A DNA stretch of 38,265 nucleotides, taken from assembly GCA_026014875.1 (NCBI GenBank), contig JAOZHO010000024.1, positions 1 through 38,265 of the forward strand, read 5' to 3'. The stretch comes from Candidatus Bathyarchaeota archaeon. Lineage in GTDB: Archaea > Thermoproteota > Bathyarchaeia > TCS64. How positions within the stretch are numbered: the first letter of the stretch is position 1; each line of letters starts with the position of its first letter. The notes under the pieces were generated by a model. That model did no database searches, was not told where the DNA came from, and saw nothing but the letters and a program-made list of their open reading frames with translations. The translations under genes and the position numbers were made by a program. Positions 23-16,788 of the stretch are shown one piece after another.

Positions 23-643
23 ATGGCAGATGTAATCGGACTCTGGATCTCGGCTATCCTAACGATAATGATCACCACCCTGGCGTGGAAGGACACCCCC
101 GTCTCCAAGACGGCGGAGCACATCTACCTAGGCGTGATTACAGCCAACAGCATCGTGATGGCATGGGGTAACATCGACAGCGTCGGCATACAAAAGATCA
201 TGTCAGGTCAGTTCTTGTACATAATACCGGTGATACTCGGCATCATGGCCTACGCACGGTACTCCAAAGAGAACTTCTGGATCTACAGGTACCCCATTGC
301 ACTCGTCGTCGGGATCGGCGTCGGGACGGCAATGAGTGGCCTCGTCGGGGGAAGCGTCCTCGACCAGATCAAAGCCTCCTTCTGGAATCTCAACGTGCCG
401 GGGGACATCGGTGCCAGCTTGAACAACCTCATCATGGTAGTGACCCTGGTGAGCGCAATGATGTACTTCATCTTCACGATAAAAGCTACGAGAAGCCCGA
501 TAGCCATAAAGCTAAGCACCTTCGGGCGCTACGCTATGATGGCAGCATTCGGATACTCCTTCGCCAACACCATCGCCACAAGGATCAACCAGTACGCAGG
601 CAGGATAGCATTCCTAATGCTGGAGTGGCTCCAGCTAGGATAG
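23..643 (+). CDS. Six-helix integral membrane protein, unknown function
   Basis: I do not recognise this 206-residue protein. It is mostly hydrophobic, with about six membrane segments near residues 4-22, 33-51, 64-80, 90-110, 132-153 and 167-188. The loops are short. Between helices 4 and 5 there is a small soluble stretch containing Lys, Trp and Asn. No catalytic or transporter signature is visible. The ATG at 23 is preceded by a strong Shine-Dalgarno (AAAGGAGG, positions 5-12) with no room for its own promoter, so it is probably the last gene of an operon that begins outside the window. A T-rich terminator follows directly. The reading frame is clean and codon use matches neighbours, so it is a real gene of unknown role. 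Confidence 0.75.
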   Translation: MADVIGLWISAILTIMITTLAWKDTPVSKTAEHIYLGVITANSIVMAWGNIDSVGIQKIMSGQFLYIIPVILGIMAYARYSKENFWIYRYPIALVVGIGVGTAMSGLVGGSVLDQIKASFWNLNVPGDIGASLNNLIMVVTLVSAMMYFIFTIKATRSPIAIKLSTFGRYAMMAAFGYSFANTIATRINQYAGRIAFLMLEWLQLG

Positions 644-740: not shown

Positions 741-1895
741 TTACTCCTCGATGATCTCGACGTTCGCTCTAGGTATCGTGACCTCTGTCCCATCGTCGAG
801 TCTAACCACCAGGACCCGAACCTTTGATCCGGACTCGACCCTCATGAGCTCCACCGGAAGGCTCGCCACCTTCCCTATAGCTCCGAAGTTGGGCTCCCTA
901 ATGATCCTCACTGGAGTGCCCGAAGTCATGCCCGCCGAGAGGCCTTCCTTCTCGAGTTCCTCCTTCTCATCGTGAGGGATGATGATCTCAGGCCGGAGTA
1001 CCCCCGCCCTGATCTGCGTGGCGCCGTTGATTGCGGCCACGTATCCCTCGAAGCTCTTCAAGAGGTCGAAGGTTCGAGTGGACATGTTCATTTTACCAAA
1101 ACCCTCAGTGATGATCAGAGTGGTGCCTATCTCCTCGTGGCCGGTAATGGCGACGCCTATGGCTTCCCCCATGATTTCAGTCACATCCGTATAGTTCATG
1201 CCACCCGCCACCAATCCTGCTACGCCTATCTTCGCAGCTCTTTTGAACGCCTCGAGTGTGATGAGGCTACCCCCAATGAGAATATGTCCCTTGTCTTCCT
1301 CGGATATCCGTTCGGCGGTAAGTTCATCCTCGGGAGAATCCACAACGATCCTGACCTCCCCATGAGCCTCCCCCCCAAGTCCGAGGATCCCCTGTATGAA
1401 CGCGGCCTGGGTCGCGACCACTACGCCCTCTCGGGGCATAATCCCGACGACTTTGCCTGGGATATACGCGTTCACCTCCACCGGGACTGGTTCCGGGCGT
1501 ATTATGACTTGGCCTGTGAGTTTAGAGATCGACTCGATCTCTCCATCCATTGGGGATGTGACCTCCCTATTGATGAGACCGAACCACGCCTTGTAATTAC
1601 CGAAGACCTCTCCTTTCTGGAGCTTGTCACCCTCTTTCTTGTAAAGGAAGTCGTGGATCTCATTCTGATCGATTCCTAGAATGGCTGAAACTTTGACCAG
1701 TCGGGGATCCCCGGGGACCTCGGTCTTGGCGACGATTGTATCATAGGAGACGCTGGCTCCCTCTTCCACGAGGATGTCGCCCAATAGGGGTAGACGCCTC
1801 TCCTTGCTCACGGTCATCAACCTCTTCACCTTGAGGCCGGGTGTATAAGCGAATGCTTCAGTATTTTTTTCCGAGTCATTGTTTTCTGTCATCAT
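741..1895 (-). CDS. Barrel-sandwich (lipoyl/RnfC-like) protein paired with a MutL-type ATPase
   Basis: This 384-residue soluble protein begins with a polar tail. A region at about 20-165 follows, with short beta strands and glycine turns (for example EVTSPMDGEIESI) typical of barrel-sandwich hybrid folds such as biotinyl/lipoyl or RnfC-type domains. No lipoyl or biotin attachment lysine is obvious. A central alpha/beta part (about 165-290) has glycine-rich stretches (ILIGGSLITLEAF, GVAGLVAGGMNYTD). The C-terminal 60 residues look like a KOW/SH3-type barrel. Its ribosome binding site GAGGAGG overlaps the stop codon of the MutL-like gene upstream (10-bp gap), so the two are almost certainly co-translated and act together. 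The family function is unknown to me; a scaffold or partner of the ATPase is an inference. Confidence 0.8.
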   Translation of the reverse strand: MMTENNDSEKNTEAFAYTPGLKVKRLMTVSKERRLPLLGDILVEEGASVSYDTIVAKTEVPGDPRLVKVSAILGIDQNEIHDFLYKKEGDKLQKGEVFGNYKAWFGLINREVTSPMDGEIESISKLTGQVIIRPEPVPVEVNAYIPGKVVGIMPREGVVVATQAAFIQGILGLGGEAHGEVRIVVDSPEDELTAERISEEDKGHILIGGSLITLEAFKRAAKIGVAGLVAGGMNYTDVTEIMGEAIGVAITGHEEIGTTLIITEGFGKMNMSTRTFDLLKSFEGYVAAINGATQIRAGVLRPEIIIPHDEKEELEKEGLSAGMTSGTPVRIIREPNFGAIGKVASLPVELMRVESGSKVRVLVVRLDDGTEVTIPRANVEIIEE

Positions 1896-1905
1896 ATCAT
1901 CCTCC

Positions 1906-3747
1906 TCAGTACAGCTTGCCGATCATCTCTGCGGGATACATCTCAAGAACAGCGAACCACTCCCTCAACAGCGTCCTCCGGGCCTCAGCCTCATCGGGCA
2001 GCTGGATTGGTCTGCCCCGTCCGTCGAGGATGACTCCGCCGATTCCGCCAATAACCTTCGCCTCGAGACTCTTCCCAGGCTCAGCGCCCACATCCAATCC
2101 ATGGGCAGGCTCCACCAAAGCGTCAACTTCGACGCCCTCCGGGAGCTTGATGCGTTTAATCTCTCCTCCTCGCACCGTTTCCTGGAATTCGGATCCATCC
2201 GGGGCAGTCCAACTCACCTTCATGACCTCGCTGCCCTGGGAAATCATTCCCTTCGGGGCGATGTTGGTACCTAGCCTGACAAGGCAGTCCTTATCGAATA
2301 TGTTCCAGGCGGCATCCCTGTAGACGGTGGATAGCACCCCTAGGTGAGGCATCATGAAGACGCTGTCCTGGAACATCCATGTCACCCCCTCAGGCTGCCA
2401 AGCATCCGTGAGGATCATCATGCTCTGGATCCTGTCGGGAGCGTGGCTCAGAAGACCGCCGGTTCCAGCGATGACCTCAAGGGTTAGCATATCGATGTAG
2501 GTCTCAGCGAGTTCCTGGTCGAAGAAAGTACCCCGATCCATCCCTTCGCCTAGCTTCATGCCCTTGAGCCTCGTGGCGATACTCTTATGATGTCCCAAGC
2601 CCAGCCGGAGAGCCTCCCTAGCAACAGAGTGCTCGATAATGAGCTCCTCGAGGGTCTGGGGGATGGTTGTGGGGCGGATCATCTTGTTTGAGAGGCGCCG
2701 CCCGATATCCTCCTCATCCCTGCTGAAGGGAAGCCAGCGCATGATGTCCCCGAGACCCGCCTCCTTCATCACGTTGCTCACGCTGTAACTCATCCCCAAG
2801 TTCGCGCTTACACTCCTGACGAAGCGAGAATCAACGACCGAATACACATTGGTGGTAGCCCCTCCGAGCCCGACGCCAATGGTATTCTTTTTGAACGTAT
2901 CAGCGATAAGCTGAATTGACATCCCCTCCCCCGCCGGGGTAGGCATGATATCTACGTCCGTCCACTTCATGAGGCGTGGATAACCCGGGGCGTGGCTCAT
3001 GACGTGCTCCATGAAGAGCTCGTGGACGGCCATGCGAGCCGGCTCAGTGTTCTCTACCTCGAGGACTGGGCGAAGGTTGTCGACTATCTCGAGAGCAAAA
3101 TTCTCCCCGAGGAGTCTCTGAGCCTGCGGCCGCACGTCCTTGTTCCCAGCATAAACAAGGGGAAGATTGTATGAGACCCCGAGCCGGGGCTTCGGATCGG
3201 CGGCCTTTATGAGCTCGATGAGCTGGATGACGTGGGTCGTATCGCCGCCGTCGGTGCCCCCGGCAACCAGAATCATATCCGGTCGAAGGCTCCTGATTCT
3301 CCTGATTTTCTGGTAGGGGGCCCTACCGTCGTCCTCAGCGAAAACATCCATGACTATAGAGCCCGCCCCGAGGGCGGCCCTGTTGGCGCTCTCCGCTGTG
3401 ATCGCCTTGATGAACCCTCCCACCATCATCTGGAGGCCTCCCCCCGCGCTGCTGGTGGTGCAGTAAAGGTCGACGCCGGATCCATGTTCATAGGGAACCG
3501 TGATCCCGCTGCCGTCCGGGGCGAGGATCTTGTGGCCGGTGAGCTCCTCGATCTCCCTGACTGCGTTCTGTACCCCCATGGTGACGTCCTCGTAGGGTGC
3601 CTCCACGGTTGTAGGGGCCTCGCCGGCAACGACGAACCTCCACTCTCCCGACTTGTTGGAGAAGAACCGCGCCTTGGTCGTCGTGCTCCCTACGTCTGTG
3701 ACTAGAATGTATTCCATGTCTTCAGGGGCTTTCTTGAGTTTCGCCAT
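1906..3747 (-). CDS. MutL/GlmL-family ASKHA ATPase (glutamate mutase-associated type)
   Basis: This 613-residue protein matches the MutL (GlmL) family, ASKHA-fold ATPases encoded beside coenzyme-B12 aminomutases and thought to reactivate them. This is not the DNA mismatch-repair MutL. Visible signs are the first phosphate loop near residues 17-30 (VTDVGSTTTKARFF), TTSSAGGGLQMMVGG in the middle of the N-terminal lobe, the VAGGTDGGDT motif, and the second nucleotide loop VGLGGATTNVYSV. Length is close to bacterial homologues, but the gene lacks its usual neighbours mutS/mutE or OraS/OraE. It is the first gene of a two-gene operon and is divergent from a D-aminoacylase-type gene across 174-180 bp. 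The family call is firm; the client enzyme is unknown. Confidence 0.88.
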   Translation of the reverse strand: MAKLKKAPEDMEYILVTDVGSTTTKARFFSNKSGEWRFVVAGEAPTTVEAPYEDVTMGVQNAVREIEELTGHKILAPDGSGITVPYEHGSGVDLYCTTSSAGGGLQMMVGGFIKAITAESANRAALGAGSIVMDVFAEDDGRAPYQKIRRIRSLRPDMILVAGGTDGGDTTHVIQLIELIKAADPKPRLGVSYNLPLVYAGNKDVRPQAQRLLGENFALEIVDNLRPVLEVENTEPARMAVHELFMEHVMSHAPGYPRLMKWTDVDIMPTPAGEGMSIQLIADTFKKNTIGVGLGGATTNVYSVVDSRFVRSVSANLGMSYSVSNVMKEAGLGDIMRWLPFSRDEEDIGRRLSNKMIRPTTIPQTLEELIIEHSVAREALRLGLGHHKSIATRLKGMKLGEGMDRGTFFDQELAETYIDMLTLEVIAGTGGLLSHAPDRIQSMMILTDAWQPEGVTWMFQDSVFMMPHLGVLSTVYRDAAWNIFDKDCLVRLGTNIAPKGMISQGSEVMKVSWTAPDGSEFQETVRGGEIKRIKLPEGVEVDALVEPAHGLDVGAEPGKSLEAKVIGGIGGVILDGRGRPIQLPDEAEARRTLLREWFAVLEMYPAEMIGKLY

Positions 3748-3853
3748 CCTTTCCTTTCCCTCATTTATTCTAGATGTTCAATAACTCTACAAGACGGTGA
3801 ATTTAGCTTTTAGGATAGTTTGAGGATCCTTCGTATTCTCTAAATACAGGAAA

Positions 3854-3867
3854 TTGAAAGCGTTCAA
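3854..3867. promoter_or_regulatory. Short inverted repeat in the MutL / amidohydrolase divergent spacer
   Basis: TTGAA-AGCG-TTCAA forms a 5-bp-arm inverted repeat about 60 bp before the amidohydrolase start and 107 bp before the ATPase start. It lies just upstream of the TATA-like box for the right-hand gene, which would suit a shared operator. Arms this short can arise by chance. Confidence 0.25.
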
Positions 3868-3886
3868 GCTCAATTGATTCGTAGAA

Positions 3887-3904
3887 AATTAATTATTACT
3901 TAAA
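3887..3904 (+). promoter_or_regulatory. TATA-like promoter for the first amidohydrolase
   Basis: An A/T-only stretch (AATTAATTATTACTTAAA) is centred about 30 bp before the ATG at 3928. No Shine-Dalgarno lies in front of that ATG, so transcription probably starts at or next to the start codon (leaderless). Confidence 0.5.
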
Positions 3905-3927
3905 GGCTAAAGATAGATTGATTGAAC

Positions 3928-5571
3928 ATGTGGAATTACCTAATCAAAAATGGATACGTTGTGGATGGAACCGGGGCACCATGGTTCAAAGCGGACGTCG
4001 CCATCGAAGGAGAAAAGATTGTCGAGATCAACAGGAGGCTCCCCGCCTCGAAGGCGGACACGGTCATCGACGCCAAGGGGCTCGTCGTTTCTCCAGGCTT
4101 CATCGACATGCACAGCCACGCAGAGATCCCGTTCATCGCCTACCCTACGGGAGACTCTATGATCCACCAGGGGGTCACCACCCAGTTCGCCTGCCAATGC
4201 GGGACCAGCGGAAGTGGCCCCCTCAAGGGCGCAGCCCTCGAAGCCGTAAAAAGAAGAACCAAGCAAGCTCACGACATCGAGGTCGACTGGACGACCCTAG
4301 CAGAATACATGGCGAGGTTCGAACGCCAGGGCTGCAGTATCAACGGAGCATTCCAGGCGGGCCACGGAACTGTCCGCCTCTGCGTATTGGGATGGGAGAA
4401 TAGAGCCCCCACCAAAGACGAGCTGGACGAGATGAAGGCTCTAGTCGCCCAGACCATGGAGATGGGAGCCTTCGGCCTCTCCACCGGACCAATGTACACC
4501 CCGGGGAACTACGCGGAAACCGATGAACTCATCGAGCTCGCGAAAGTCGCCGCAATGTACGGGGGAGTCCACACGAGTCACGACCGGCGCAGGGGCTGGG
4601 AGAGCGACCCCCGAGGCGGAAGGGACTTTATCACCACCACCATCGACAGCGAGATCTGGTCCATCATGGAGGTCATCAAGATCGGTGAAGAAGCGGGTCT
4701 CCCAACCACCTGGACCCACGCCAAGGCGTGCGGAGAGGTGAACTGGGAGAAATCCTTGGACAAATGGTTCAAGATCATCGAAATGGCGAGGCGCCGGGGC
4801 GTAGACGTCGCCATAGACGTCTATCCTTGGACCTTCAGGGGCGGCATAGTCCGTGGATTCCCCACCTGGGCCGAGGAGGGAGGACCCGAGAAGAAACGGG
4901 AGCGCCTCAAAGACCCTAAGATGTACAAGAAGATCAGGGCATACGTGAAAGAGATGATGGAAACCACCCTCGCCGAGCACACCTGGGACAGGGCTCTGAT
5001 ACTGACTGCCACCGAGGAAGACCAGGACCTGGTGGGAAAGTTCATGACCGAGGCAGCCGAGATGAGGGGGATGGAGCCCGTCGACCTCTACCTTGACAGG
5101 ATAAGGGAGGACAAGGAGCTCGGAGGCATCGGTCAGGCGATGCACGAAGAGGATGTCAAGGCGCTCCTCAAGCACCCCCTCAGCATGGTGGGCACCGACG
5201 GCTCCCCCCTCCCCGCGAACTACCACAGGCTAGTGCACCCCCGGAACTACGGGACATTCCCGAAGATACTGAGAAAGTACGTCCGGCAGGAGAGGGTGCT
5301 GACCCTGGAGGACGCGATCAGGAAAATGACATCGGCCGGCGCGACGAAGCTAGGGCTCATGGACAGAGGAGTCCTGCGGCCGAATTTCTGGGCCGACGTC
5401 ACCGTCTTCGACCCCCTCAACGTGAGGGAGCTTGCAACATACCAGGACCCCATCCAGCTCCCCGAGGGCATCGAGTACGTCTTCGTAAACGGCACACTGA
5501 CCATCGAGCACGACAAGCACACCGGGGCCCTAGCGGGGAAGCCTCTGAGGCATAAAATCGCCGAGGACTAG
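3928..5571 (+). CDS. D-aminoacylase / N-acyl-D-amino-acid deacylase family amidohydrolase
   Basis: This amidohydrolase-superfamily enzyme has about 547 residues. Counting from ATG 3928, the metal motif His-x-His is H62/H64 (IDMHSHAE). The conserved cysteine of D-aminoacylases is in ACQCG (C91 by alignment to its paralogue). Later metal-ligand histidines are in HTSH and WTHAK, and the catalytic aspartate is in GTDGS. The family hydrolyses N-acyl-D-amino acids or related N-acyl/peptide substrates in the cytosol. Where the paralogue at 9022-10665 has the classical HLRDE stretch, this protein has HDRRR followed by a different loop, so its substrate probably differs. A TTG at 3922 is also in frame. 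I prefer ATG 3928 because the TATA-like box lies about 30 bp ahead. It is divergent from the MutL-type operon. Confidence 0.88.
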   Translation: MWNYLIKNGYVVDGTGAPWFKADVAIEGEKIVEINRRLPASKADTVIDAKGLVVSPGFIDMHSHAEIPFIAYPTGDSMIHQGVTTQFACQCGTSGSGPLKGAALEAVKRRTKQAHDIEVDWTTLAEYMARFERQGCSINGAFQAGHGTVRLCVLGWENRAPTKDELDEMKALVAQTMEMGAFGLSTGPMYTPGNYAETDELIELAKVAAMYGGVHTSHDRRRGWESDPRGGRDFITTTIDSEIWSIMEVIKIGEEAGLPTTWTHAKACGEVNWEKSLDKWFKIIEMARRRGVDVAIDVYPWTFRGGIVRGFPTWAEEGGPEKKRERLKDPKMYKKIRAYVKEMMETTLAEHTWDRALILTATEEDQDLVGKFMTEAAEMRGMEPVDLYLDRIREDKELGGIGQAMHEEDVKALLKHPLSMVGTDGSPLPANYHRLVHPRNYGTFPKILRKYVRQERVLTLEDAIRKMTSAGATKLGLMDRGVLRPNFWADVTVFDPLNVRELATYQDPIQLPEGIEYVFVNGTLTIEHDKHTGALAGKPLRHKIAED

Positions 5572-5585
5572 ACCTCCTCGACCCC

Positions 5586-5591
5586 TTTTTT
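5586..5591 (+). terminator. T-run terminator after the amidohydrolase
   Basis: A run of six T after a C-rich stretch, 15 bp downstream of the TAG stop, with another TTT shortly after. It separates this gene from the next TATA-like box at 5613. Confidence 0.45.
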
Positions 5592-5612
5592 CTCACTTTC
5601 AGGTTCAGCATC

Positions 5613-5623
5613 ATTATTATTTA
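5613..5623 (+). promoter_or_regulatory. TATA-like promoter for the 5642/5686 transcript
   Basis: TTATTATTTAT is centred near 5618. The standard archaeal spacing puts the transcript start at about 5642-5645, that is, on the ATG of a 15-codon mini-ORF rather than on the main gene at 5686. Confidence 0.45.
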
Positions 5624-5641
5624 TCCGAATCTTAGGATTCC

Positions 5642-5689
5642 ATGGGATTAACTCCAAGCTTCGCCGAGGAGGCTTCGCTAGGACTATGA
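5642..5689 (+). other. 15-codon leader ORF overlapping the next start (ATGA)
   Basis: ATG at 5642 opens 15 codons ending in TGA at 5687-5689, which overlaps the ATG at 5686 in the classic ATGA coupling arrangement. It contains GAGGAGG (5666-5672), a ribosome binding sequence 13 nt ahead of the 5686 ATG. The predicted leaderless transcript would start on this mini-ORF. Whether the peptide is made is unknown. Confidence 0.35.
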
Positions 5690-6051
5690 GAAAGAATGAG
5701 CCCTACCACTTCGTCAGGTTCCTCTGGGCGGCCACAGTTGATTTGAAGGCCATGGAGGAGGAACTCGCCGAGTACGTCATCGGCTGGAGGGTTCCCCCCG
5801 AGACCGAGTCCAAGATGCACTTTCACATTTACAACCTGAGGGAGCTCAAGCTCAAGGCGGACACGCTGAACGCCTTCATATCCCTCACCAGGGCAATCCT
5901 CTTCCAGAAGGAGCGCGCCCCCTTCACCCCCAGGGACATGGAGTTGAGGAGGAGGATTCTCGAAATCTACCCTCGGAACAGGCCGACGCCCTTCCCCTTC
6001 CTCGTCAACGACGAGCCCAAGTTCGAGGTCAAGGAAGGGATGCCGGCTTAA
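5686..6051 (+). CDS. Small soluble protein of unknown function (121 aa)
   Basis: I do not recognise this protein. It is soluble, charged and mostly helical, with a histidine/aromatic-rich N-terminus (PYHFVRFLW), a KMHFHIYNLREL strand-helix stretch in the middle and a proline-rich C-terminal part (RNRPTPFPFLV). There is no signal peptide or membrane segment. The alternative reading on the other strand (5632-6108) has the arginine/glycine/proline-rich look of a shadow frame. This frame has a balanced protein composition and a start coupled to a leader ORF, so I take it as the real gene. It sits between an amidohydrolase and a peptidase, which could mean a role in peptide metabolism, but nothing in the sequence shows that. 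Confidence 0.55.
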   Translation: MRKNEPYHFVRFLWAATVDLKAMEEELAEYVIGWRVPPETESKMHFHIYNLRELKLKADTLNAFISLTRAILFQKERAPFTPRDMELRRRILEIYPRNRPTPFPFLVNDEPKFEVKEGMPA

Positions 6052-6111
6052 CCGGATCGGGGTCAGACCTGTCCCTTCATCCGCCTCTCGGGCGAGGAGG
6101 GGTTCCACAAG

Positions 6112-7506
6112 TCACCTTATGGAGTCAGGATGCCACTTGAGCTGCACCCTGAGGGTGTCGGCCATGCCGCTCTCCTCCAGACGCTTCACGATCTCCTCCA
6201 CCGGAGTCCTCTCCGCGATGACGCCGGGCTCGTTGGCCAGATGGATCAGCGAGTGGGCGAGGACCATCGCGGCGTCCTTCAGGTTCTTGGGGACCACCTT
6301 GTCGATGGTATCCGCTGAGGTGTGAGTCCATCCCCGACCGACCCTAGCGACCTCTGCAGGGCTCCGGTATCCCGAGAGGAAGACCGCGGGTATCCCCTGC
6401 ATGTAGAAGGGCCAGTGATCCGAAGAGGCGGCCATGGCCCTGCCCACCGTCATGTTGTAGTTCATCCTGCCTGCGAGGTCCTGGAGATAACCTGCGAGGG
6501 AATCGGGGCCATAGACCTTGTAGACTTGGTCCGCGACCCGCCCGGCGCCGTCGCAGTTGATCATGAGGTCGATGTGCTTGAGGTCGTCGCTGTGCTTGGC
6601 TGCGTAGCAGGTGGAGCCGGTGACCCCGATCTCCTCTGCGGAGAAACAGACGAAACGGATTGTGCGCCTGAACTTCCCTTTATGCTTCGCCAAGGCTCTT
6701 GCCGCTTCCATGATGACCACAGCCCCCGAGCCGTCGTCAAGGGCGCCCACAGCGATGTCGTGACCCTCGTAATGGGCACCGACCAGGATGACCTGATCCT
6801 TGAGGTCGGTGCCGGGGATCTCTCCTACGACGTTCCAGGACTCCGTGTCGGGAGTGATGACGTCGGTGGTGGTGATCCTCACCTTGGCCGTGTCTTTCTC
6901 GAGCATCCGAATCAGGTAGCTGCCAGTCTCCCAGCTGACCCCGATTCCGGGAATCTCTCCGGCCATCCTGTACGCGGGTCGGAGGGAGCCCGTGGGCATG
7001 AGCTGCCCGGGGTTGTGGTTCACGAATATGAAGCCGATGGCTCCGTATTTTACGGAATATCCGTACTTTGTGCGCCGGTGAACCATGGCACCCGACGGCC
7101 TCGGCTGGCTTGTGCAGAGGACTATCTTGCCCTCTATCTCTTTCTTCTTGGCCTCGAATAGCTCGGGGAACCCGGGTCCTAGGTAGATTATGGCCCCTTC
7201 GATGCCCTCCGTGGGGGTTGGGGGGCAGAGAGCGAGGGACTGGGTGTAGAGGTCCATCTTCCTGGGTTGGAGTAGCTCCAGCTTTGCCTCGCCCCGCCGC
7301 CATCCCACGTATAGAAAGTCGTCGAGGGAGACGTTGTCGAGCCCATACTCTCTGAGCTTGGATGCGATATACTCGGCTGAGGGCTTTTCTCCTTCGGTGC
7401 CTGCGAATCGGCTTCCGAACTCGTCGCATAGATGGAGTAGAGTTTCATATGCCTCGTTGGATGACCAGATCTCCCCGAGGACGTCCTTTTCGATTTTACT
7501 CGTCAT
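6112..7506 (-). CDS. M28-family zinc aminopeptidase with inserted PA-like domain
   Basis: This 464-residue metallopeptidase carries the two-zinc M28 site: GAHYEGHD, the bridging aspartate in GALDDGSG, the catalytic Glu pair in SAEEIG, the aspartate in NCDGAG and the last histidine in GWTHTSADT. Residues about 75-215 form a PA-like insert (EGAIIYLG, GKIVLCTSQP, YGAIGFIFVN). This is the usual layout of M28 aminopeptidases and carboxypeptidase Q relatives. No signal peptide is visible, so it probably trims imported peptides in the cytosol. It is divergent from an MFS carrier across about 100 bp containing two TATA-like boxes, one for each direction, which suggests joint control of uptake and cleavage. 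Confidence 0.92.
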   Translation of the reverse strand: MTSKIEKDVLGEIWSSNEAYETLLHLCDEFGSRFAGTEGEKPSAEYIASKLREYGLDNVSLDDFLYVGWRRGEAKLELLQPRKMDLYTQSLALCPPTPTEGIEGAIIYLGPGFPELFEAKKKEIEGKIVLCTSQPRPSGAMVHRRTKYGYSVKYGAIGFIFVNHNPGQLMPTGSLRPAYRMAGEIPGIGVSWETGSYLIRMLEKDTAKVRITTTDVITPDTESWNVVGEIPGTDLKDQVILVGAHYEGHDIAVGALDDGSGAVVIMEAARALAKHKGKFRRTIRFVCFSAEEIGVTGSTCYAAKHSDDLKHIDLMINCDGAGRVADQVYKVYGPDSLAGYLQDLAGRMNYNMTVGRAMAASSDHWPFYMQGIPAVFLSGYRSPAEVARVGRGWTHTSADTIDKVVPKNLKDAAMVLAHSLIHLANEPGVIAERTPVEEIVKRLEESGMADTLRVQLKWHPDSIR

Positions 7507-7534
7507 GAAACCGCCGATTACTAGGGAGCCACGG

Positions 7535-7543
7535 CGTTTATAG
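7535..7543 (-). promoter_or_regulatory. TATA-like promoter for the M28 peptidase
   Basis: On the minus strand CTATAAACG is centred about 33 bp before the ATG at 7506, giving a predicted start a few bases ahead of the codon. Confidence 0.45.
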
Positions 7544-7574
7544 CAGTTGCAGGTGAAACCTCGATTTTCGCCGT

Positions 7575-7587
7575 AAATCTATTTATA
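7575..7587 (+). promoter_or_regulatory. TATA-like promoter for the MFS carrier
   Basis: AAATCTATTTATA ends 24 bp before ATG 7612, placing the transcript start on or next to that ATG. An upstream in-frame ATG at 7594 would be too close to the box to be transcribed, so this site decides the start codon. The core TAAATCTATTTA is also palindromic. Confidence 0.5.
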
Positions 7588-7611
7588 CCGAGTATGGCCT
7601 CGCGATGGCAT

Positions 7612-9006
7612 ATGAAGTTCGAGTACACCCTGGGGCTCGTATTCTTCGGTCTCACTCTGTCTGCCTACTTGATTCTTTTCGGGTTGGGTCGGAAGTGGAG
7701 GAGGGAGTTCGAAGCCCGGGGGGTCACTTACTGGCAGGCCCCTAAGGAGGAGAGGATGCGGGAGCTCATATCCGAGGTCTGGCGCCCTAAACTTATCGCC
7801 CTCTTCTACGGCCTCGCTTACTTCGCTAATGGATACATGAAGATCACGTTCTCTATGTGGGCTCCTCTGTATCTGATGCAGGTCAGGGGTATGAATACTT
7901 TTGACACCGCCCTGTTTCTGGGGCTCGTCTATGTTTCGTGGCAGTGGAAAATGTTCATTGGAATGATCTCGGACGGTTTCCCCGTTCGATTCAGGGGAAA
8001 TACCTACAGGAGGCATCCCCTGTTCGTGGCGACGGGTGTACTGAGTATTATTGCCATCCTGGGATTCGTTGTCACCGATCTTAATGCCGTCCCTGTATGG
8101 ACGGTCTTTTTCCCCCTGTGCCTAGCTATGACCACTGCGGGAGCTCTCTTCGATATCGCTGCGGACTCTTATGCGGTGGATGTGACTCCGCCTGAATGGC
8201 ACGCCAGGGTTCTCGGTGGGGTTAATACCTTCGGGATGGCGGTGGGGGGCATCGCTGCGAGCCTTCTGAGCCCTGTGATTATTTCGTGGGCTGGTTATCG
8301 GGGTGTGTTTATCACGGGGGGGCTCGTGGGGCTCTTAGCTTTCCTGTTCTTGATCTTGAAGGAGCCGAAGCTGGAGGCTGAGAGGGTGTTCAGCAGGGAG
8401 GCCATTGCGTTCACGTTCACCGAGAAGTCTGTGCTCATTGCTGCCCTCCTCATGGTCGGCTCTGCAATAGGGACGCGGAGGATCAGTAATCCCACTGGGG
8501 GGATGTTCAGCCTGGTGATGAATGAGATCGTGGGCGGTTTTACACCTGAGAGGGCGGGGCGGATCTCGGTCTTGGTTCTCCTTTCCGGGATCCCTGCCTC
8601 CGTTATTGGGGGGATAGCTGCGGATCGGTGGGGGCATAAGCGGATCTATTTCATTGCGGGGTTGGGGGTGATGGTGACGGGCTACCTGTGGATGACCCTG
8701 AAGCCGGGGATGGTGACCTGGTTCATCGTCCTTGCGGTGATCTCGAATTTCGTGGAGAGAATAAACTCCGGAGGCCGCATGGCGCTCATGGCGGACTCGA
8801 CCCCCCTGGCGTTGTCGGCGACGGTGTTCCAGATGTACATGAGCTTCTCCTGGATAGGAAATATCCCAGCGAGCATCATCATAGGCTACCTGCTTCCCCG
8901 GGATATGCCTCTGCTTTTCGCGGTTCTATCCAGCTTCACGTTGCTGCCTCTGTTCCTTGTCAGGTACTTGAAGCCTTTCGAGGCGGCGAAAGCGACTACA
9001 GTGTAA
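7612..9006 (+). CDS. Major facilitator superfamily transporter
   Basis: This integral membrane carrier has 464 residues from ATG 7612 (or 470 from 7594). It has an extra N-terminal helix, a charged cytosolic linker with Lys/Arg/Glu, and then about twelve membrane segments. The MFS motif A is clear at the start of the second half as GGIAADRWGHKR. A weaker form in the first half reads GMISDGFPVRFRG. Substrate cannot be read from sequence. The divergent M28 peptidase and the convergent D-aminoacylase (15-bp gap at the 3' end) suggest peptides, amino acids or acylated amino acids. Many codons end in G or T, unlike the C-ending usage of the amidohydrolase at 3928. Confidence 0.85.
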   Translation: MKFEYTLGLVFFGLTLSAYLILFGLGRKWRREFEARGVTYWQAPKEERMRELISEVWRPKLIALFYGLAYFANGYMKITFSMWAPLYLMQVRGMNTFDTALFLGLVYVSWQWKMFIGMISDGFPVRFRGNTYRRHPLFVATGVLSIIAILGFVVTDLNAVPVWTVFFPLCLAMTTAGALFDIAADSYAVDVTPPEWHARVLGGVNTFGMAVGGIAASLLSPVIISWAGYRGVFITGGLVGLLAFLFLILKEPKLEAERVFSREAIAFTFTEKSVLIAALLMVGSAIGTRRISNPTGGMFSLVMNEIVGGFTPERAGRISVLVLLSGIPASVIGGIAADRWGHKRIYFIAGLGVMVTGYLWMTLKPGMVTWFIVLAVISNFVERINSGGRMALMADSTPLALSATVFQMYMSFSWIGNIPASIIIGYLLPRDMPLLFAVLSSFTLLPLFLVRYLKPFEAAKATTV

Positions 9007-9021
9007 AAAAGAAGGGGGGAT

Positions 9022-10665
9022 CTACCTCTTCCTCAGGACTTTTCCGGCGAGAGCCCCTGTATGTTCTTCCTCGTCTATGGTTAGGACTCCGTTCACGACG
9101 ACGTAGGGTATCCCTTCAGGGTATAAGATGCTCTTCTCTGGCGGGGTGTATTCTGCCTTGTCGATGACGGTCTCTGGGTCGAATACGGTGACATCGGCCC
9201 ACATCCCTTCGGCGATGAGGCCCCTGTCCAGTAGGCCGAGGCGTTGGGTTCCCAGGCTGGTCATTTTCTTGATGGCTTCCTCGAGGGTGAGAACGCCCCA
9301 TTCGCGGACGTATCTTCCGAGGACTCGGGGGTATGCACCGTAGAATCGGGGGTGGACGGCGGGGTTCCTCTTCACGAGGGGTCCATAGGGGGCGTGGATG
9401 CGGCCGTCGCTGCTGGTCATGACCCATGGCTTCTTCATCATCTTGTTGACGTTCTCGTCGGACATGTTGAAGCTGATGAAGCTGAAGCGGCCCTCGACCT
9501 CCCCGGCGACGCTCTTCTCGACGTGGTCGGTGTAGATGTCGACGAGGGTGTCCACGGGGTCGTCTCTGCCCAGCATCTCTGTGATCTCGGCGATGGTCTT
9601 CCCGATGTACTCCCGTTTCAGGGGATAGTTGCGTATGAGTGCAGCCTGGGGGCCTCCCCGGACCTCCATCACCCGTTCCAGCTCGTCCCGGATCCGCTTT
9701 CGGGTCTCCGGGTCTTTGAGCCTCGCCAGGAGCCCCTCGTCGCCCCCCTCCCGGGCCCATGCGGGGCTCCACGAGAATGGGCTGGAGCCGCTGGCGGGGT
9801 AGGGGTACTGGTCGGCTGTGATGTCGACTCCTCTGGCCCGGGCTTCCTCGATGATCCTGAGGATCTCGTCGCATTCGTGCCAGTGGGGTTTGGAGAGGAT
9901 CTTGAAATGGGCGATGTGCCCTGGGAGGCCGGCCTTTTCGCTGATCTCGATTAGCTCCTTGACGGCCCCTATGGGGTCTCCTCGATCCCCCTCGTCTCTG
10001 AGGTGGCTCGTATGGATCCCGTCGTGTTTCGCCGCGGCTTTGGCGACCTCGATTACCTCTTCGGTCTCCGCCCATGACTGGGGGATGTACCGGAGGCCTG
10101 TGGTGATTCCGAATGCTCCCGCTTTCATCGCCGTCTCGACCTCGGCGTACATGGCTTCGAGCTCTCCCCGGGTGGGGGCTCTCATCTCGTAGCCCATGAC
10201 GTATCTGCGGACGGTGCCGAATCCGATGAAGGGGGCGACGTTGACCGAGGTGCCTATGGACTCTATCTTCTTGAGGTATTCTTCGAATGTGGACCAGTCG
10301 AGTTCGAGTCCGGCGTCGAAGAATGCGGGTGTGTCCCTTCGAAATTGTTCTTTGAGGGGGTCGTTGAGGGGGGCTGCTCCTGATCCGCAGTTGGGGAATA
10401 CGAGGGTGGTGACTCCTTGCCGGATGTAGCTCTCGGCTTGGGGGTTCACCATGATGCTGGTGTCGGAGTGGTTGTGTACGTCGACGAACCCGGGGCTCAC
10501 CACGAGGCCTTCGGCGTCGATCACCCGTCCGGCATCGGCTCCCTTTAGTGGGCCGACCTTGGCGATCTTTCCATCCTTGATGCCGACGTCGGCTTTGAAC
10601 CAGGGGTTCCCGGCTCCCGTGATGACTTTTCCGCCTTTGATCAGGATATCGTACATATATTTCAC
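9022..10665 (-). CDS. D-aminoacylase / N-acyl-D-amino-acid deacylase (canonical motifs)
   Basis: This 547-residue amidohydrolase is a clear paralogue of the protein at 3928-5571. It shares PWFKADV near the N-terminus and GLVVSPGF before the metal site. Visible residues: H64/H66 (VDVHNHSD), C93 (FPNCGSG), the histidine stretch HTSHLRDEGD, the next ligand in HIAHFK and the aspartate in TSSDGRIH. All are canonical for D-aminoacylase. The likely reaction is hydrolysis of N-acyl-D-amino acids (or similar N-acylated peptides) to free amino acid and carboxylate in the cytosol. Start: ATG 10665 or ATG 10656. A TATA-like box 29 bp ahead favours 10665 as leaderless, while an AGGTGA sequence better suits 10656. 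It is divergent from the EutA-type gene. Confidence 0.92.
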   Translation of the reverse strand: MKYMYDILIKGGKVITGAGNPWFKADVGIKDGKIAKVGPLKGADAGRVIDAEGLVVSPGFVDVHNHSDTSIMVNPQAESYIRQGVTTLVFPNCGSGAAPLNDPLKEQFRRDTPAFFDAGLELDWSTFEEYLKKIESIGTSVNVAPFIGFGTVRRYVMGYEMRAPTRGELEAMYAEVETAMKAGAFGITTGLRYIPQSWAETEEVIEVAKAAAKHDGIHTSHLRDEGDRGDPIGAVKELIEISEKAGLPGHIAHFKILSKPHWHECDEILRIIEEARARGVDITADQYPYPASGSSPFSWSPAWAREGGDEGLLARLKDPETRKRIRDELERVMEVRGGPQAALIRNYPLKREYIGKTIAEITEMLGRDDPVDTLVDIYTDHVEKSVAGEVEGRFSFISFNMSDENVNKMMKKPWVMTSSDGRIHAPYGPLVKRNPAVHPRFYGAYPRVLGRYVREWGVLTLEEAIKKMTSLGTQRLGLLDRGLIAEGMWADVTVFDPETVIDKAEYTPPEKSILYPEGIPYVVVNGVLTIDEEEHTGALAGKVLRKR

Positions 10666-10685
10666 CTGTGATGTGATGCTCGTTT

Positions 10686-10702
10686 GATTATTTACATTTA
10701 TG
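10686..10702 (-). promoter_or_regulatory. TATA-like promoter for the second D-aminoacylase
   Basis: The minus strand reads CATAAATGTAAATAATC, centred about 29 bp before ATG 10665. It shares a 107-bp divergent spacer with the EutA-type gene. Confidence 0.4.
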
Positions 10703-10737
10703 TAGTTCGGAGACTCGGCGATGTTTCCCGGGGTTTG

Positions 10738-10746
10738 TTTTTAATA
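10738..10746 (+). promoter_or_regulatory. TATA-like promoter for the EutA-type gene
   Basis: TTTTTAATA is centred about 30 bp before the ATG at 10773. This supports that ATG as a leaderless start and argues against the in-frame TTG at 10752. Confidence 0.45.
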
Positions 10747-10772
10747 GACGGTTGCAGGTACAGCAGTATATC

Positions 10773-12227
10773 ATGGCTGAGGAGATCGACTTGGGCGAGG
10801 GGGGGAAGGGGGAGCTGCGCCATTTTAATAGCGTGGGTATCGATATCGGTTCCACCACCACTCAGTTGGTATTCTCTAGGCTTGGCCTCGGTTTCGTTGA
10901 GGAGACGCATAAGTTCGATATCGTTGATCGGGAAGTCGTTCATTATTCGGAGATCTGTCTGACGCCGTTTCATGATGATTATACCATTGATACGGAGGGT
11001 TTGAGGGGGATTCTCGGGGATGCGTATAGGGGGGCCGGGTTCGAGGCGGAGGACATTGACACCGGGGCCATCATCATCACAGGGGTTGCTGCTCTCCGTC
11101 ATAATGCAGCGAGGATCTTGGAGTTGTTCTCGGGTCAGATGGGGAGGTTCGTGGTGGCCACTGCGGGGCCTAATTATGAGGCGATTCTGGCGGCCCATGG
11201 CTCGGGTGCTGTGGAGTTGTCGGATCGGCGGCTTAAGACGGTGATGAATGTGGACGTGGGCGGGGGGACTTCGAAGATCGCGGTGATCCGGAGGGGGGAG
11301 GTGGTGAAGACCGCGAGCGTCTTCGTGGGTGCCCGCCACGTGGTTTTGGATGGTGAGGGGCGGGCGTTGAGGGTGGAGGAGCCCGCGGAGATCGTGGCCT
11401 CGGCTAATGGGTTCGGGGTCTCCGTGGGGGAGGTGGTCTCCGGGGAGGAGCAGGCGGCCATGGCGTCGTCGTTGGCGGATTCTCTTTTCGAGTTGATCAG
11501 GGGTGAGCCGTTGTCGCCGTTGACGGAGAAGTTGATGCAGACCCCGCCGCTGGGGTTCGATGGGCGTGTGGATGTCGTGTTCTTCTCGGGGGGTGTCTCG
11601 GAGTATGTGTATGGTTATGAGGAGCGGGATTTCGGGGATATCGGGTTGCTCCTGGGGGAGGAGATCCGGAGGCGGATGTGCGATCTACCTATGGTCGTGG
11701 CGGAGCCCGTGGAGAGGATCCGGGCGACTGTGATCGGTGAGTCCCAGTACACTCTCCAGGTGAGTGGGACGACGAATCTGATCTCGGATCTGGGGTTGCT
11801 GCCTATCCGTAATCTTCCGGTGGTGGCGCCTCGGTTTGCGAGTAGTGTGCTCTCGGTGGAGCAGATGGAGGCGGAGATCCGGCGGGCGTTGGGGATGCAT
11901 GATCTGGATCCGGGGAGGGATGCCTTTGCGTTGGCGTTTGCGCGTTCGGTTATTAATCAGCCGTCTTATCTTCAGATGAAGGGGTTGTCGGAGGCTGTGG
12001 TGGGGGTGCAGCGGGGGAAGGTGGAGGCGGGGGAGCCGTTGGTGCTGGTGTTTGAGGCGGATATCGGTATGGGGATCGGTCGGGTGATCCAGGAGGAGGT
12101 TGCTCCGGGGTGTGCGTTGATCTCGATCGATGAGGTGAAGCTGAGCGACTTTAACTATGTGGATATCGGTGAGCCGACGGGGGACCGGGGGTTCATCCCG
12201 GTGATCATCAAGTCGCTGGTCTTCTAG
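10773..12227 (+). CDS. EutA-family ASKHA ATPase (ethanolamine ammonia-lyase reactivase type)
   Basis: This protein of about 484 residues belongs to the EutA family, ASKHA-fold ATPases that exchange damaged coenzyme B12 on ethanolamine ammonia-lyase. Visible elements are the first phosphate loop VGIDIGSTTTQL, the second loop NVDVGGGTSKIAV and the adenosine-site stretch FFSGGVSEYVYG. A C-terminal part (ADIGMGIGRVI) is less characteristic. No eutB/eutC, microcompartment shell or cobalamin gene is in the window, so the client is unknown. It is divergent from the canonical D-aminoacylase, just as the MutL-type ATPase is divergent from the other amidohydrolase. The plus strand here is extremely rich in G and T (GGG, TTG, GAT codons). 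The family call is strong, the ethanolamine role weak. Confidence 0.85.
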   Translation: MAEEIDLGEGGKGELRHFNSVGIDIGSTTTQLVFSRLGLGFVEETHKFDIVDREVVHYSEICLTPFHDDYTIDTEGLRGILGDAYRGAGFEAEDIDTGAIIITGVAALRHNAARILELFSGQMGRFVVATAGPNYEAILAAHGSGAVELSDRRLKTVMNVDVGGGTSKIAVIRRGEVVKTASVFVGARHVVLDGEGRALRVEEPAEIVASANGFGVSVGEVVSGEEQAAMASSLADSLFELIRGEPLSPLTEKLMQTPPLGFDGRVDVVFFSGGVSEYVYGYEERDFGDIGLLLGEEIRRRMCDLPMVVAEPVERIRATVIGESQYTLQVSGTTNLISDLGLLPIRNLPVVAPRFASSVLSVEQMEAEIRRALGMHDLDPGRDAFALAFARSVINQPSYLQMKGLSEAVVGVQRGKVEAGEPLVLVFEADIGMGIGRVIQEEVAPGCALISIDEVKLSDFNYVDIGEPTGDRGFIPVIIKSLVF

Positions 12228-12286
12228 GCTCGACGGTCGGTGTCCTTGAGCGCGTGGGGTGCGGGGGGCCCCTCCTTTAAAAGATG

Positions 12287-12293
12287 TTTTTTT
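12287..12293 (+). terminator. T7 run after the EutA-type gene
   Basis: Seven T residues 60 bp after the TAG, preceded by a G/C-rich stretch (GGGGGGCCCCTCC). It lies just ahead of repeat copy A, whose T tracts could add further stop signals. Confidence 0.4.
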
Positions 12294-12298
12294 CTGGG

Positions 12299-12420
12299 TT
12301 TCTGTTTGGGGTTGTTTTTGGGGTTGTTTTGTTGTTTGGCGGGTTTTTTTGGGTCTTTGTTTTGCTGTTTTGCTACTGAATAGCCCCTGAACAGCTACTG
12401 AATTGCTCGGGTGGGGGTTT
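12299..12420 (+). repeat. G/T-rich dispersed repeat, copy A
   Basis: About 120 bp, nearly devoid of A and C on the plus strand over its first 70 bases, ending in two direct copies of GCTACTGA (12372-12379 and 12394-12401) 22 bp apart. It aligns in the same orientation and order with 14468-14586, sharing exact blocks such as TTTCTGTTTGGGGTTGTTTT, TTGTTGTTTGGCGGGTTTTT and CTGAACAGCTACTG. There is no coding potential. It fills most of the 303-bp gap between the EutA-type gene and the MFS gene; the remainder (12421-12530) holds nothing I can identify. Confidence 0.8.
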
Positions 12421-12530
12421 CCGGGTGTTTTTAGGGTTCCTTCCGGTGAAATGAGGTTCGAATTAGTTTGGATGGGATATGTTTCTTGTTCCCCTATTCT
12501 TTTCTTCGCTTCGCCCTTATCCGCGCTCGC

Positions 12531-13784
12531 TTATTCGAACACCTTCTCGGGTTCATGGACGCCAAACCAGAAGACCGCAGCAGCAACCAAGCCGATGACA
12601 GCCGAGAGCTGGAAAGGCAACTGTGGATAAAACGTTTCCCAGAGCCAACCACCAAGCACAGAGGACGGTGCAGCGACAACCGCGGTAAGGGTGCCTATCA
12701 CGCCGTTAACGGTAGCCCTCTTATGTGAGGGAACAATATCGGCGATCAACGCATTCCACGCAGACCCCCCAGCCCGAACACCACCGCCCCCGAAAGCCAG
12801 TCCAACCGCGTTGACAGACATCACCAGCATGTATGGCGTGAATCCAGAGACAGACGTCATGAAGTACTGTGTGACGGGCGCGATGACCCTTGAGACCATG
12901 ATATTGTTCTTGCGCCCGTACTTGTCGGAGAGTATACCGCTGGGAAGTGTGAGAACCATCTGCACAAGGCCGGCAATGGATGTGATGATCCCTAGATTGG
13001 TCGGGGTTATCTTGATGATGTCGAGGGCGTAGAGATTGATGTAGTCAAACACCAGCCTCCCCGAGAAGCTACCGATTATAGATACTATTATCATGATAAA
13101 AATCGGTCGCGGTAGCTCCTTGAAGGTCTGGGCCTTGGGTAGTATTGGGGGCCTCTTGCCGGTCCTATGAACGACCGTCTCCTTTAGATTGAAGAACCTT
13201 ATGATGATCCCTAGGATGGAGGCACCGATCTGCAGCATGAGAAACACCCTGACGCCCCTGTAGAGTCCGTACGTGTCTACGAGGAGTCCACCTAGGAGGG
13301 GGGCGATTATGCTGGGGATGCGTGTGATCGTATTGTAGACCCCATAACCGGAGCCCCGCCTCTCGCTGGGGAGAGACTCAGCGATTATGGCGTTGAAGGC
13401 AGGCATGTATAGGCTCGTCATGCCAGCCACCATGGCTCCAGGAATCACCCACTCCCAGCTGGGAGCCATGAGGTAGAAGACCGGACCGAGAGTCCTAAAG
13501 ACCGTGCCTGCGAGGATCAGCTTCCTCCTTCCGTACCTGTCGGCTATCAGCCCCCCTGGCAGCTGGAATAGTAGGCTCTCAGCTGTGGCGATCATTGAGA
13601 AGATGCCGATGTCTGTAATTGAGGCTCCCAAGTAGTTTTGTAGGTAGAGGGCCCAGAAGGGGCGATACCCCTGCCCCATCATGCCCCAGAGGGCGACGGT
13701 GACGGATATCGCCATAATGTTCTTGTTGCTGAATACATCCTTGAATATGGAGTAATATTCCTCTAGCCTGCCTTTTCGCTCCAT
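12531..13784 (-). CDS. Major facilitator superfamily transporter
   Basis: This 417-residue carrier has about twelve membrane helices. MFS motif A appears in both halves: GGLIADRYGRRKLI near residue 77 and SGILSDKYGRKNNI in the second half. A short charged N-terminus (MERKGRLEEYY) precedes helix 1. Unlike many genes here it has a clear Shine-Dalgarno (AAAGGTGG) just before the ATG and a leader. The gene lies between the two G/T-rich repeat copies together with a broken nitroreductase, and upstream palindromes suggest regulation. Substrate is unknown; the two-motif-A layout is that of drug/solute antiporter-like MFS families. Confidence 0.88.
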   Translation of the reverse strand: MERKGRLEEYYSIFKDVFSNKNIMAISVTVALWGMMGQGYRPFWALYLQNYLGASITDIGIFSMIATAESLLFQLPGGLIADRYGRRKLILAGTVFRTLGPVFYLMAPSWEWVIPGAMVAGMTSLYMPAFNAIIAESLPSERRGSGYGVYNTITRIPSIIAPLLGGLLVDTYGLYRGVRVFLMLQIGASILGIIIRFFNLKETVVHRTGKRPPILPKAQTFKELPRPIFIMIIVSIIGSFSGRLVFDYINLYALDIIKITPTNLGIITSIAGLVQMVLTLPSGILSDKYGRKNNIMVSRVIAPVTQYFMTSVSGFTPYMLVMSVNAVGLAFGGGGVRAGGSAWNALIADIVPSHKRATVNGVIGTLTAVVAAPSSVLGGWLWETFYPQLPFQLSAVIGLVAAAVFWFGVHEPEKVFE

Positions 13785-13844
13785 TGTACCACCTTTTTTT
13801 AGAAATTATTAGAGAAGTAAATGTGTGGAGTTAATATATTGTTG

Positions 13845-13855
13845 TATATTTAAAG
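13845..13855 (-). promoter_or_regulatory. TATA-like promoter for the MFS gene
   Basis: The minus strand reads TTTAAATATAC about 65 bp before the ATG at 13784. It predicts a leader of about 35 nt carrying the Shine-Dalgarno AAAGGTGG, consistent with a leadered rather than leaderless transcript. Confidence 0.4.
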
Positions 13856-13870
13856 TCAAACGCGCGCGCA

Positions 13871-13899
13871 TTTACTAGTAAACATGATGTGATACATCA
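13871..13899. promoter_or_regulatory. Adjacent palindromes upstream of the MFS promoter
   Basis: TTTACTAGTAAA (13871-13882) is a perfect 12-bp palindrome. Two bases later TGATGT-GAT-ACATCA (13885-13899) has perfect 6-bp arms. Both lie just upstream of the TATA-like box on the MFS side, where archaeal activators or repressors commonly bind. Function is inferred from symmetry and position only. Confidence 0.4.
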
Positions 13900-14128
13900 A
13901 AATTTATAGTTATATTAAGTGTTGGCTTCTTTTAATAGATTGGCTCCTATCTTCTATTTCTCGTTTACTAGGAAATCGAAGTCTTCTCTTCGGCTTCTAT
14001 GGTTGGTACAACAAGCACGTAACATGTATTTTCCCTTAGAAATTGTATCAGTGATCATCCAAAAGTTGATTTTATACAAATCAGCTAAGATATTTTTGCG
14101 CGCGCATGATATTATGAAGAAAAGGGCG

Positions 14129-14465
14129 TTATAGGGATTTTGAGCAATATTTTTCCCAGCTAACAATAGTGTCAAGGCTCTTTCTTTCCTTAGGCGCTGG
14201 TATCTCATCAGGTACTCCTAGAGGTATTACCGCGATAACCTTGAAATTATCTGGGATATTTAATATGTTCTTAACCAATTCTTCCCTACCTGTCTGCCCC
14301 ATCCAACATGTTCCAAGACCTAGATTTGTAGCAGCTAATACGATATGTTCTAACGCTATTCCTAGATCGTTAATACACCAATTTTGAGACGCTTCTTGAT
14401 CGGCTAAACCAACGATCATAACAGGAGCTTCAGCTGCCCATTCTCGTTTAGCTAGTTTTTTTATA
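14129..14465 (-). pseudogene. N-terminally truncated nitroreductase-family gene
   Basis: The frame encodes the C-terminal two thirds of an FMN nitroreductase: AAEAPVMIVGLAD, the helix with DLGIALEHIVLAATNLGLGTCWMG, KVIAVIPLGVPDEIP, then the RKSLDTIVSWEKY ending typical of the family. The normal N-terminal FMN-binding arm (RRSIR-type motif and first helices, about 60-80 residues) is missing. Upstream of IKKLAK the frame reads straight into G/T-rich repeat copy B as a low-complexity Gln/Asn/Pro/Lys string, so the apparent start at 14554 lies inside the repeat. The N-terminal half is not found beyond the repeat. I take this as a broken gene, though a shortened expressed protein cannot be excluded. 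Confidence 0.75.
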
Positions 14466-14467
14466 GT

Positions 14468-14586
14468 TTTCTGTTTGGGGTTGTTTTGGGGGTTGATTTG
14501 TTGTTTGGCGGGTTTTTCTTGGTGTTCTGGGTGTTGTTTTGCTACTGATAGCATCTGAACAGCTACTGGTTTGCTTGGGGGGTTGG
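14468..14586 (+). repeat. G/T-rich dispersed repeat, copy B
   Basis: Second copy of the repeat at 12299-12420, same orientation, with the same terminal pair of GCTACTGA / GCTACTGG elements (14541-14548 and 14562-14569, 21 bp apart). Its left edge coincides with the truncation point of the nitroreductase fragment. Its right edge is followed by the promoter region of a methyltransferase. No inverted terminal repeats or target duplications could be seen by eye. Confidence 0.8.
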
Positions 14587-14640
14587 CGGGGTTTTCACGG
14601 GTCGCGCGCGGCCGGTGTTTCCACTCGATTCTTATCTCCT

Positions 14641-14653: not shown

Positions 14654-14670
14654 TGATCTGGGGGATAGGA

Positions 14671-16736: not shown

Positions 16737-16788
16737 ATGAAGTCGTCAAGCCACCTACGTGAAATATACGTCTCTACACTGACACATT

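Follow-up and report, generated by a model that had tools for sequence, protein, structure and literature searches.

We find that the MutL-type ASKHA ATPase encoded in the window analysed here very probably belongs to a system that joins it to an unnamed partner protein, P384, and to a membrane cassette containing DUF6754. The window, 38,265 nucleotides in length, spans an entire contig of a 96% complete Bathyarchaeia MAG, and it was examined within a comparison set of 61 genomes comprising its own genome and 60 relatives. The MutL-P384 pair, natural fusions of its two members and their co-localisation with the cassette extend from Bathyarchaeia to many bacterial phyla. Literature searches returned no paper on a MutL-P384-DUF6754 system and none on DUF6754 (PF20539), which is described merely as a domain of unknown function; its link to MutL-P384 comes from the present analysis.

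The gene for the 613-residue ATPase (positions 1906-3747, minus strand) is followed after a gap of 10 bp by that for P384 (741-1895, also minus strand, 384 residues), a protein with no family in Pfam or NCBIfam. MutL followed directly by P384 is the arrangement at 18 of 18 MutL loci in eight genomes of the family, and in a wider set MutL lies directly upstream of 49 of 68 P384 copies. Some lineages carry P384 away from MutL; where the two are apart, a MutL match was found elsewhere in 13 of the 14 genomes tested (one a fragment only). MutL and P384 are fused into single proteins in four bacterial genomes. Genome contigs contain at least 571 relatives of P384, and column identity averages 59% over 65 archaeal and bacterial sequences. 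A Foldseek search with the predicted model of P384 (AF2, pLDDT 86) gave a C-terminal KOW/SH3 match and a weak RraA match, and PDB sequence searches with MutL, P384 and EutA gave nothing of note. An AccA-like gene adjoins P384 in some WOR-3/Stahlbacteria loci. P384, the constant neighbour of MutL, had been overlooked in the first reading of the window.

The cassette consists of DUF6754 and three unnamed membrane proteins, TM2, P280 and TM4, and the order DUF6754-TM2-P280-TM4 is kept in bacteria and archaea. Its last gene, TM4, lies in the window (23-643, plus strand), cut from its cassette partners by the contig edge; the hydropathy of its product suggests several transmembrane helices, and homologues are found near MutL-P384 in relatives. 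The genes for DUF6754, TM2 and P280 close another contig of the same genome, C44, whose final bases recur at the start of the window; the DUF6754 gene there (L148, 10033-10812) is a clear PF20539 member at 191 bits. The set in this genome comprises positions 741-3747, TM4 and the three genes at the end of C44. Among the 61 genomes, MutL occurs in 30, DUF6754 in 30 and both in 27 (Fisher 8e-11, a value dominated by clade), and presence or absence of the two within the order gave no statistical signal. By position, 24 of the 52 MutL genes have a DUF6754 gene no more than 8 kb away, against 1.7 expected. DUF6754 genes can outnumber those for MutL, as in one genome with 15 against 3 (G014), and a small protein of about 100 residues accompanies the system at many loci. 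Foldseek searches with DUF6754 produced weak matches alone, none significant (best E 0.008), and the anti-phage defence models of PADLOC-DB matched none of the seven proteins searched.

We propose that P384 is the constant partner of MutL and that the pair would work with the four-subunit membrane cassette. MutL would run through ATP-driven conformations and, via P384, may assemble, activate or reactivate the membrane complex; this activator mechanism, drawn by likeness to what MutL relatives do for B12 enzymes, is put forward tentatively. Gene neighbourhoods suggest amino-acid or peptide catabolism as the setting, because amide and peptide hydrolases adjoin the loci in Bathyarchaeia and glycine cleavage genes do so in several bacterial lineages (MutL comes after GcvT, GcvH, GcvPA and GcvPB in 12 bacterial loci). 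Taken whole, as an undescribed ASKHA-membrane system that has MutL for its ATPase and includes P384, the cassette, an activator role and a catabolic setting, the explanation has in our judgement about an even chance of being right. Archaea and many bacterial phyla may even share a new type of ATP-driven membrane machine, one that uses an ASKHA ATPase of the reactivase kind, outside its known role with B12 enzymes, to power or maintain a membrane complex for amino-acid or peptide metabolism; we hold this broader reading with rather less than even confidence. The system is strongly conserved, and its components and their gene order are now defined well enough to be tested.

One alternative is that MutL-P384-DUF6754 is an amino-acid or peptide transport or sensing complex which feeds, or co-regulates, hydrolases and transporters encoded next to it, with D-aminoacylases functionally linked to it. 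The window encodes two amidohydrolases assigned to the D-aminoacylase family by similarity to solved enzymes, AH1 (3928-5571, plus strand, ATG at 3928; PF07969 and PF01979 above cut-off) and AH2 (9022-10665, minus strand; PF07969). AH2 matches both enzyme halves of D-aminoacylase (PDB 1m7j, E 9e-75) and of N-acyl-D-glutamate deacylase (3gip, E 5e-73), and AH1 and AH2 are 43% identical, which bears out their preliminary description as paralogues. Set beside known D-aminoacylases, AH2 is one of many paralogues in its own genome, where it finds 20 matches with at least eight strong D-aminoacylase paralogues among them, and its substrate is a prediction from sequence. In 15 cases, against 4.1 expected, a D-aminoacylase gene is no more than 10 kb from DUF6754, so that a looser link between D-aminoacylases and the cassette survives, although these loci are partly syntenic and not independent. 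Genes of the AH2 subfamily occur near the cassette in several genera, hydantoinase-like genes and S58, M20 and M14 peptidases occur near the loci of relatives, and the glycine cleavage genes at bacterial loci point the same way. However, many bacterial loci have other neighbours and no transporter fold was recognised, and we regard a transport or sensing complex as unlikely.

A connection with B12 would be retained, with a different client, if MutL-P384 maintained a cobalamin-dependent radical SAM enzyme or a corrinoid methyltransferase. Of 16 B12-binding proteins with the length of a radical SAM enzyme among the strongest matches listed, 6 are encoded no more than 6 kb from MutL or DUF6754 in relatives, against 0.7 expected; five such genes that were checked carry Radical_SAM and B12-binding, and in two loci (L055 and L173) one B12-binding radical SAM gene sits between the cassette and P384. 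This over-representation leaves room for a B12-related role. A UroD-like/corrinoid pair also lies about 4 kb from a second cassette of the window's own genome (L149), and a similar pair is found on the MutL contig of a relative (G016, L154). Against these stand matches of corrinoid-protein length, which are not enriched (2 against 1.3 expected, again among the strongest matches listed), the two B12-binding radical SAM genes of the own genome, neither of which is near MutL, and five bacterial loci (L070, L094, L096, L101 and L137) in which no MutL-linked B12 mutase was found. On balance we consider a radical SAM or corrinoid client improbable.

Glutamate mutase and ornithine 4,5-aminomutase have MutL/GlmL and Or-4 as accessory ATPases, and the window MutL might be supposed to act as an ordinary reactivase for a coenzyme-B12 aminomutase whose genes lie elsewhere in the genome. 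Corrinoid proteins are indeed present there, and in a profile search the protein matches PF13941 over its full length (370 bits against a cut-off of 27; residues 14-488, model positions 1-450 of 450), an ASKHA ATPase domain that it has in common with GlmL and Or-4. It differs from these in a C-terminal extension of about 125 residues past the Pfam MutL domain, in scores below all the NCBIfam cut-offs applied (GlmL 199 against 475, Or-4 192 against 600, GlmL family 129.5 against 204 bits), and in its steady partner, which is P384 and not an aminomutase. One bacterium provides an in-genome control (G458): its canonical MutL, above the Or-4 cut-off at 610 bits, lies next to ornithine aminomutase, beside OraE and OrtB, and its four extended MutLs adjoin P384 or P384-like proteins. 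Family searches for B12 enzymes gave four B12-binding-domain matches in the window's own genome, namely two radical SAM proteins, a protein encoded just upstream of an MttB-family gene and a corrinoid protein whose gene follows a UroD-like one; all are of methyltransferase-type corrinoid or radical SAM kinds, and no adenosylcobalamin mutase is among them. None of the 20 window genes scanned encodes a B12 enzyme, in agreement with the preliminary description. The diol/glycerol dehydratase large subunit had no match in the 61 genomes, and control genomes gave no match either. An ordinary reactivase is largely contradicted already and highly improbable, and the suggestion that hydrolase products feed B12-dependent mutases or lyases finds no such enzyme in the genome. 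MutLs of this type readily acquire the label of glutamate mutase accessory protein, which could pass as evidence that uncultured archaea and bacteria ferment glutamate by a B12-dependent route; in this 96% complete genome that reading fails.

The two ASKHA genes are each divergent from a D-aminoacylase gene, MutL from AH1 across a spacer at 3748-3927 and EutA from AH2 across one at 10666-10772, as first reported, and this repeated pairing had been read as a sign of an undescribed pathway or of ATPases that work directly with the hydrolases. Of the 61 genomes, the own genome and one of the same genus are the two in which MutL has a strong AH match at a distance of 6 kb or less (2 against 1.1 expected), these two loci form one syntenic block with 90-99% protein identity, and the EutA-AH adjacency likewise occurs in the own genome and that same sister species (G002) alone. 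Since the adjacency does not extend beyond a single block at genus level, the refuting observation named in the preliminary description has been made for both pairs, and we reject a conserved AH-ASKHA operon given the single block, the many paralogues and the chance-level proximity of AH to MutL. That MutL and EutA act directly on the adjoining D-aminoacylases as activators or subunits, for which the divergent adjacency of both pairs and its retention in the sister species might speak, is scarcely credible when these genomes encode many D-aminoacylases with no ASKHA gene in their vicinity. AH1, the D-aminoacylase next to MutL, counts as a local neighbour and not as a core part of the MutL-P384-DUF6754 system. 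Something undescribed does appear to be involved, as had been proposed, but the data support neither B12 enzymes fed by D-aminoacylases nor a direct ATPase-hydrolase partnership. In two Bacillota loci (L075 and L076) the gene next to MutL-P384 gave weak matches of 28-31 bits and encodes a different amidohydrolase, not a D-aminoacylase. A literature search returned no paper joining Bathyarchaeia with D-aminoacylase.

The EutA-type ATPase (10773-12227, plus strand, ATG at 10773) matches PF06277 over its full length at about 408 bits, in likeness to the EutA that serves as reactivating factor of ethanolamine ammonia-lyase (PMC5821096). Bacillota EutA genes score 436-691 bits and, unlike the window gene, had EutB alongside in 10 of the 10 loci inspected; EutB was found in none of the 61 archaeal genomes, with a positive E. 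coli control. Of four other EutA loci in the family, three adjoin TldD/TldE (three species, one other genus) and one is near an M28 peptidase. EutA stands apart from the MutL system as a rare, orphan ASKHA protein, and neither ATPase here serves a recognisable B12 mutase or ethanolamine lyase.

Between AH1 and EutA lie further local neighbours of the system, an M28-family metallopeptidase with a PA domain (6112-7506, minus strand), an MFS transporter (7594-9006, plus strand) and AH2. A small protein of 121 residues (5686-6051, plus strand) has no Pfam match, and an antisense ORF that is longer than this gene (5632-6108, minus strand) is probably spurious; the syntenic locus of the sister species has a 121-residue ORF in the corresponding position (L042, 14434-14799).

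We found the four genes where the preliminary description had placed them, and family matches bear out their identities. MutL (1906–3747, reverse strand) matches PF13941 over its full length (370 bits) and EutA (10773–12227, forward strand) does so with PF06277 (408 bits), while the amidohydrolases divergent from them, AH1 (3928–5571, forward) and AH2 (9022–10665, reverse), were assigned to the D-aminoacylase type and are 43% identical. Both spacers are also correct, with ATG starts at 3928 for AH1 and 10773 for EutA; AH1 and AH2 are separated by genes for an M28 peptidase and an MFS transporter. The source genome (2.5 Mb, 51 contigs, 96% complete; the window is its contig C35) was compared within a set of 61.

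EutB, of ethanolamine ammonia-lyase, was detected in none of the 61 genomes by a search that recovered the E. coli control; whereas EutB stood alongside EutA in all ten Bacillota EutA loci inspected, EutA of this archaeal family lacks it and is an orphan. The repeated ASKHA/D-aminoacylase pairing does not hold as a conserved unit. D-aminoacylases are numerous across the 61 genomes (AH2 has 20 matches in its own), and only 2 of 109 strong AH matches lie within 6 kb of MutL, against 1.1 expected, both in one block common to this genome and G002. EutA, present in 6 of 61 relatives and over cut-off in 1 of 398 genomes sampled from the phylum (this one), adjoins AH2 in the same two genomes, adjoins TldD/TldE in three genomes of a single genus (G006, G012 and G016) and has an M28 peptidase nearby in G019. 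Because AH/MutL counts are near chance and EutA neighbours vary, the pairing is a single local arrangement.

The constant partner of MutL is P384, a 384-residue protein (741–1895) encoded 10 bp after MutL on the same strand and matching no family in Pfam or NCBIfam. A homologue directly follows MutL at all 18 MutL loci in eight genomes of the family. Scanning genome contigs with a P384 alignment gave at least 571 relatives, the best 80 of which come from Bathyarchaeia, Bacillota, WOR-3, Fermentibacteria, Poribacteria, Zixibacteria and other lineages. MutL is immediately upstream in 49 of the 68 copies with room upstream, and 13 of 14 tested genomes with a separated P384 have a MutL match elsewhere, one of them a short fragment only. 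Four genomes, one of Fermentibacteria and three of WOR-3, encode the two proteins as a fusion. In some WOR-3/Stahlbacteria (L096, L101, L112, L118), P384 is separated from MutL and has an acetyl-CoA carboxylase alpha-like gene nearby. Structural comparison of the predicted P384 model (pLDDT 86) linked its C-terminal region to KOW/SH3 domains and gave a weak match to RraA; one homologue scored weakly, below cut-off, against the Pfam barrel-sandwich domains RnfC_N and Biotin_lipoyl.

Many MutL-P384 pairs, bacterial and archaeal, stand alongside a membrane cassette of fixed order, DUF6754 (PF20539)-TM2-P280-TM4. TM4 (23–643, forward) is the first gene of the window, and the other three genes end contig C44, whose last bases duplicate the window start; the cassette is therefore complete across the contig break. 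G002 has the same arrangement on a single contig (L150), and a second set in our genome is divided between C50 (MutL and P384) and C51 (cassette). MutL and DUF6754 each occur in 30 of 61 genomes and together in 27, a co-occurrence (Fisher 8e-11) that is mostly a clade effect, with no presence-absence signal within the order. Gene position is the stronger evidence for the link: DUF6754 is no more than 8 kb away from 24 of the 52 MutL genes, against 1.7 expected. The DUF6754 model (pLDDT 90) had no significant match in the PDB. At many loci a small protein of ~100–130 residues precedes the cassette or MutL (L148 9717–10010; L070 7654–8043; L171 2463–2768); the copy scanned matched no Pfam family.

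Two kinds of MutL coexist in G458 (Fermentithermobacillaceae). One is a 495-residue protein over the Or-4 cut-off that has OraE, OrtB and an ornithine-racemase-like gene as neighbours; the other is represented by four extended copies, each followed by P384 or a P384-like protein. The window MutL resembles the latter, unlike the Or-4 type, and is of the extended, P384-associated kind.

The partnership of MutL, P384 and the cassette is well supported. In the ASKHA family, reactivases use ATP-driven conformational change to act on the proteins they partner, and we propose that MutL would do this, via P384, to the cassette complex. Amide or peptide hydrolases are often near these loci in Bathyarchaeia, with 15 D-aminoacylases within 10 kb of DUF6754 against 4.1 expected at non-independent loci, and glycine cleavage genes (GcvT, GcvH, GcvPA, GcvPB) are upstream of MutL at 12 bacterial loci; amino-acid or peptide catabolism is therefore a plausible setting. 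The order GcvT-GcvH-GcvPA-GcvPB, then MutL and P384, recurs in several bacterial lineages (L094, L093, L104, L121 and others).

These loci may have a B12-related client, since radical SAM-length B12-binding genes cluster near MutL or DUF6754: among the strongest matches listed in relatives, 6 of 16 lie within 6 kb (0.7 expected), while corrinoid-protein-length matches show no such excess (2 against 1.3 expected). Radical SAM and B12-binding domains were confirmed in several of these radical SAM-length genes. B12-binding radical SAM genes close to MutL or the cassette are at L155 6508–7875, L156 2925–4289, L157 11439–12812, L053 3058–4458, L154 11590–12996 and L055 5064–6515. Our genome has four B12-binding-domain matches. 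Two are radical SAM proteins, neither of them near MutL; of the others, one lies directly upstream of an MttB-family gene and one is a corrinoid protein encoded after a UroD-like gene. A diol dehydratase search matched neither the 61 genomes nor the control genomes.

On C51 (L149, positions 8000–27999; features at 1283–2914 and 5810–14423 of the locus), a further D-aminoacylase lies ~8.5 kb from the second cassette, with a UroD-like/corrinoid pair between them. Within the window, a longer antisense ORF masks a 121-residue protein (5686–6051) resembled by short proteins at L004 (9272–9631) in the same genome and at L182, close to an AH gene. A PGA_cap protein of the capsule synthesis type occupies 20183–21631; in relatives, proteins that begin similarly are encoded close to DUF6754 loci (L174, L176). 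The stretch 22224–27185 encodes a 1230-residue GAF/PAS histidine kinase and, after it, a receiver-PAS-DUF835 protein.
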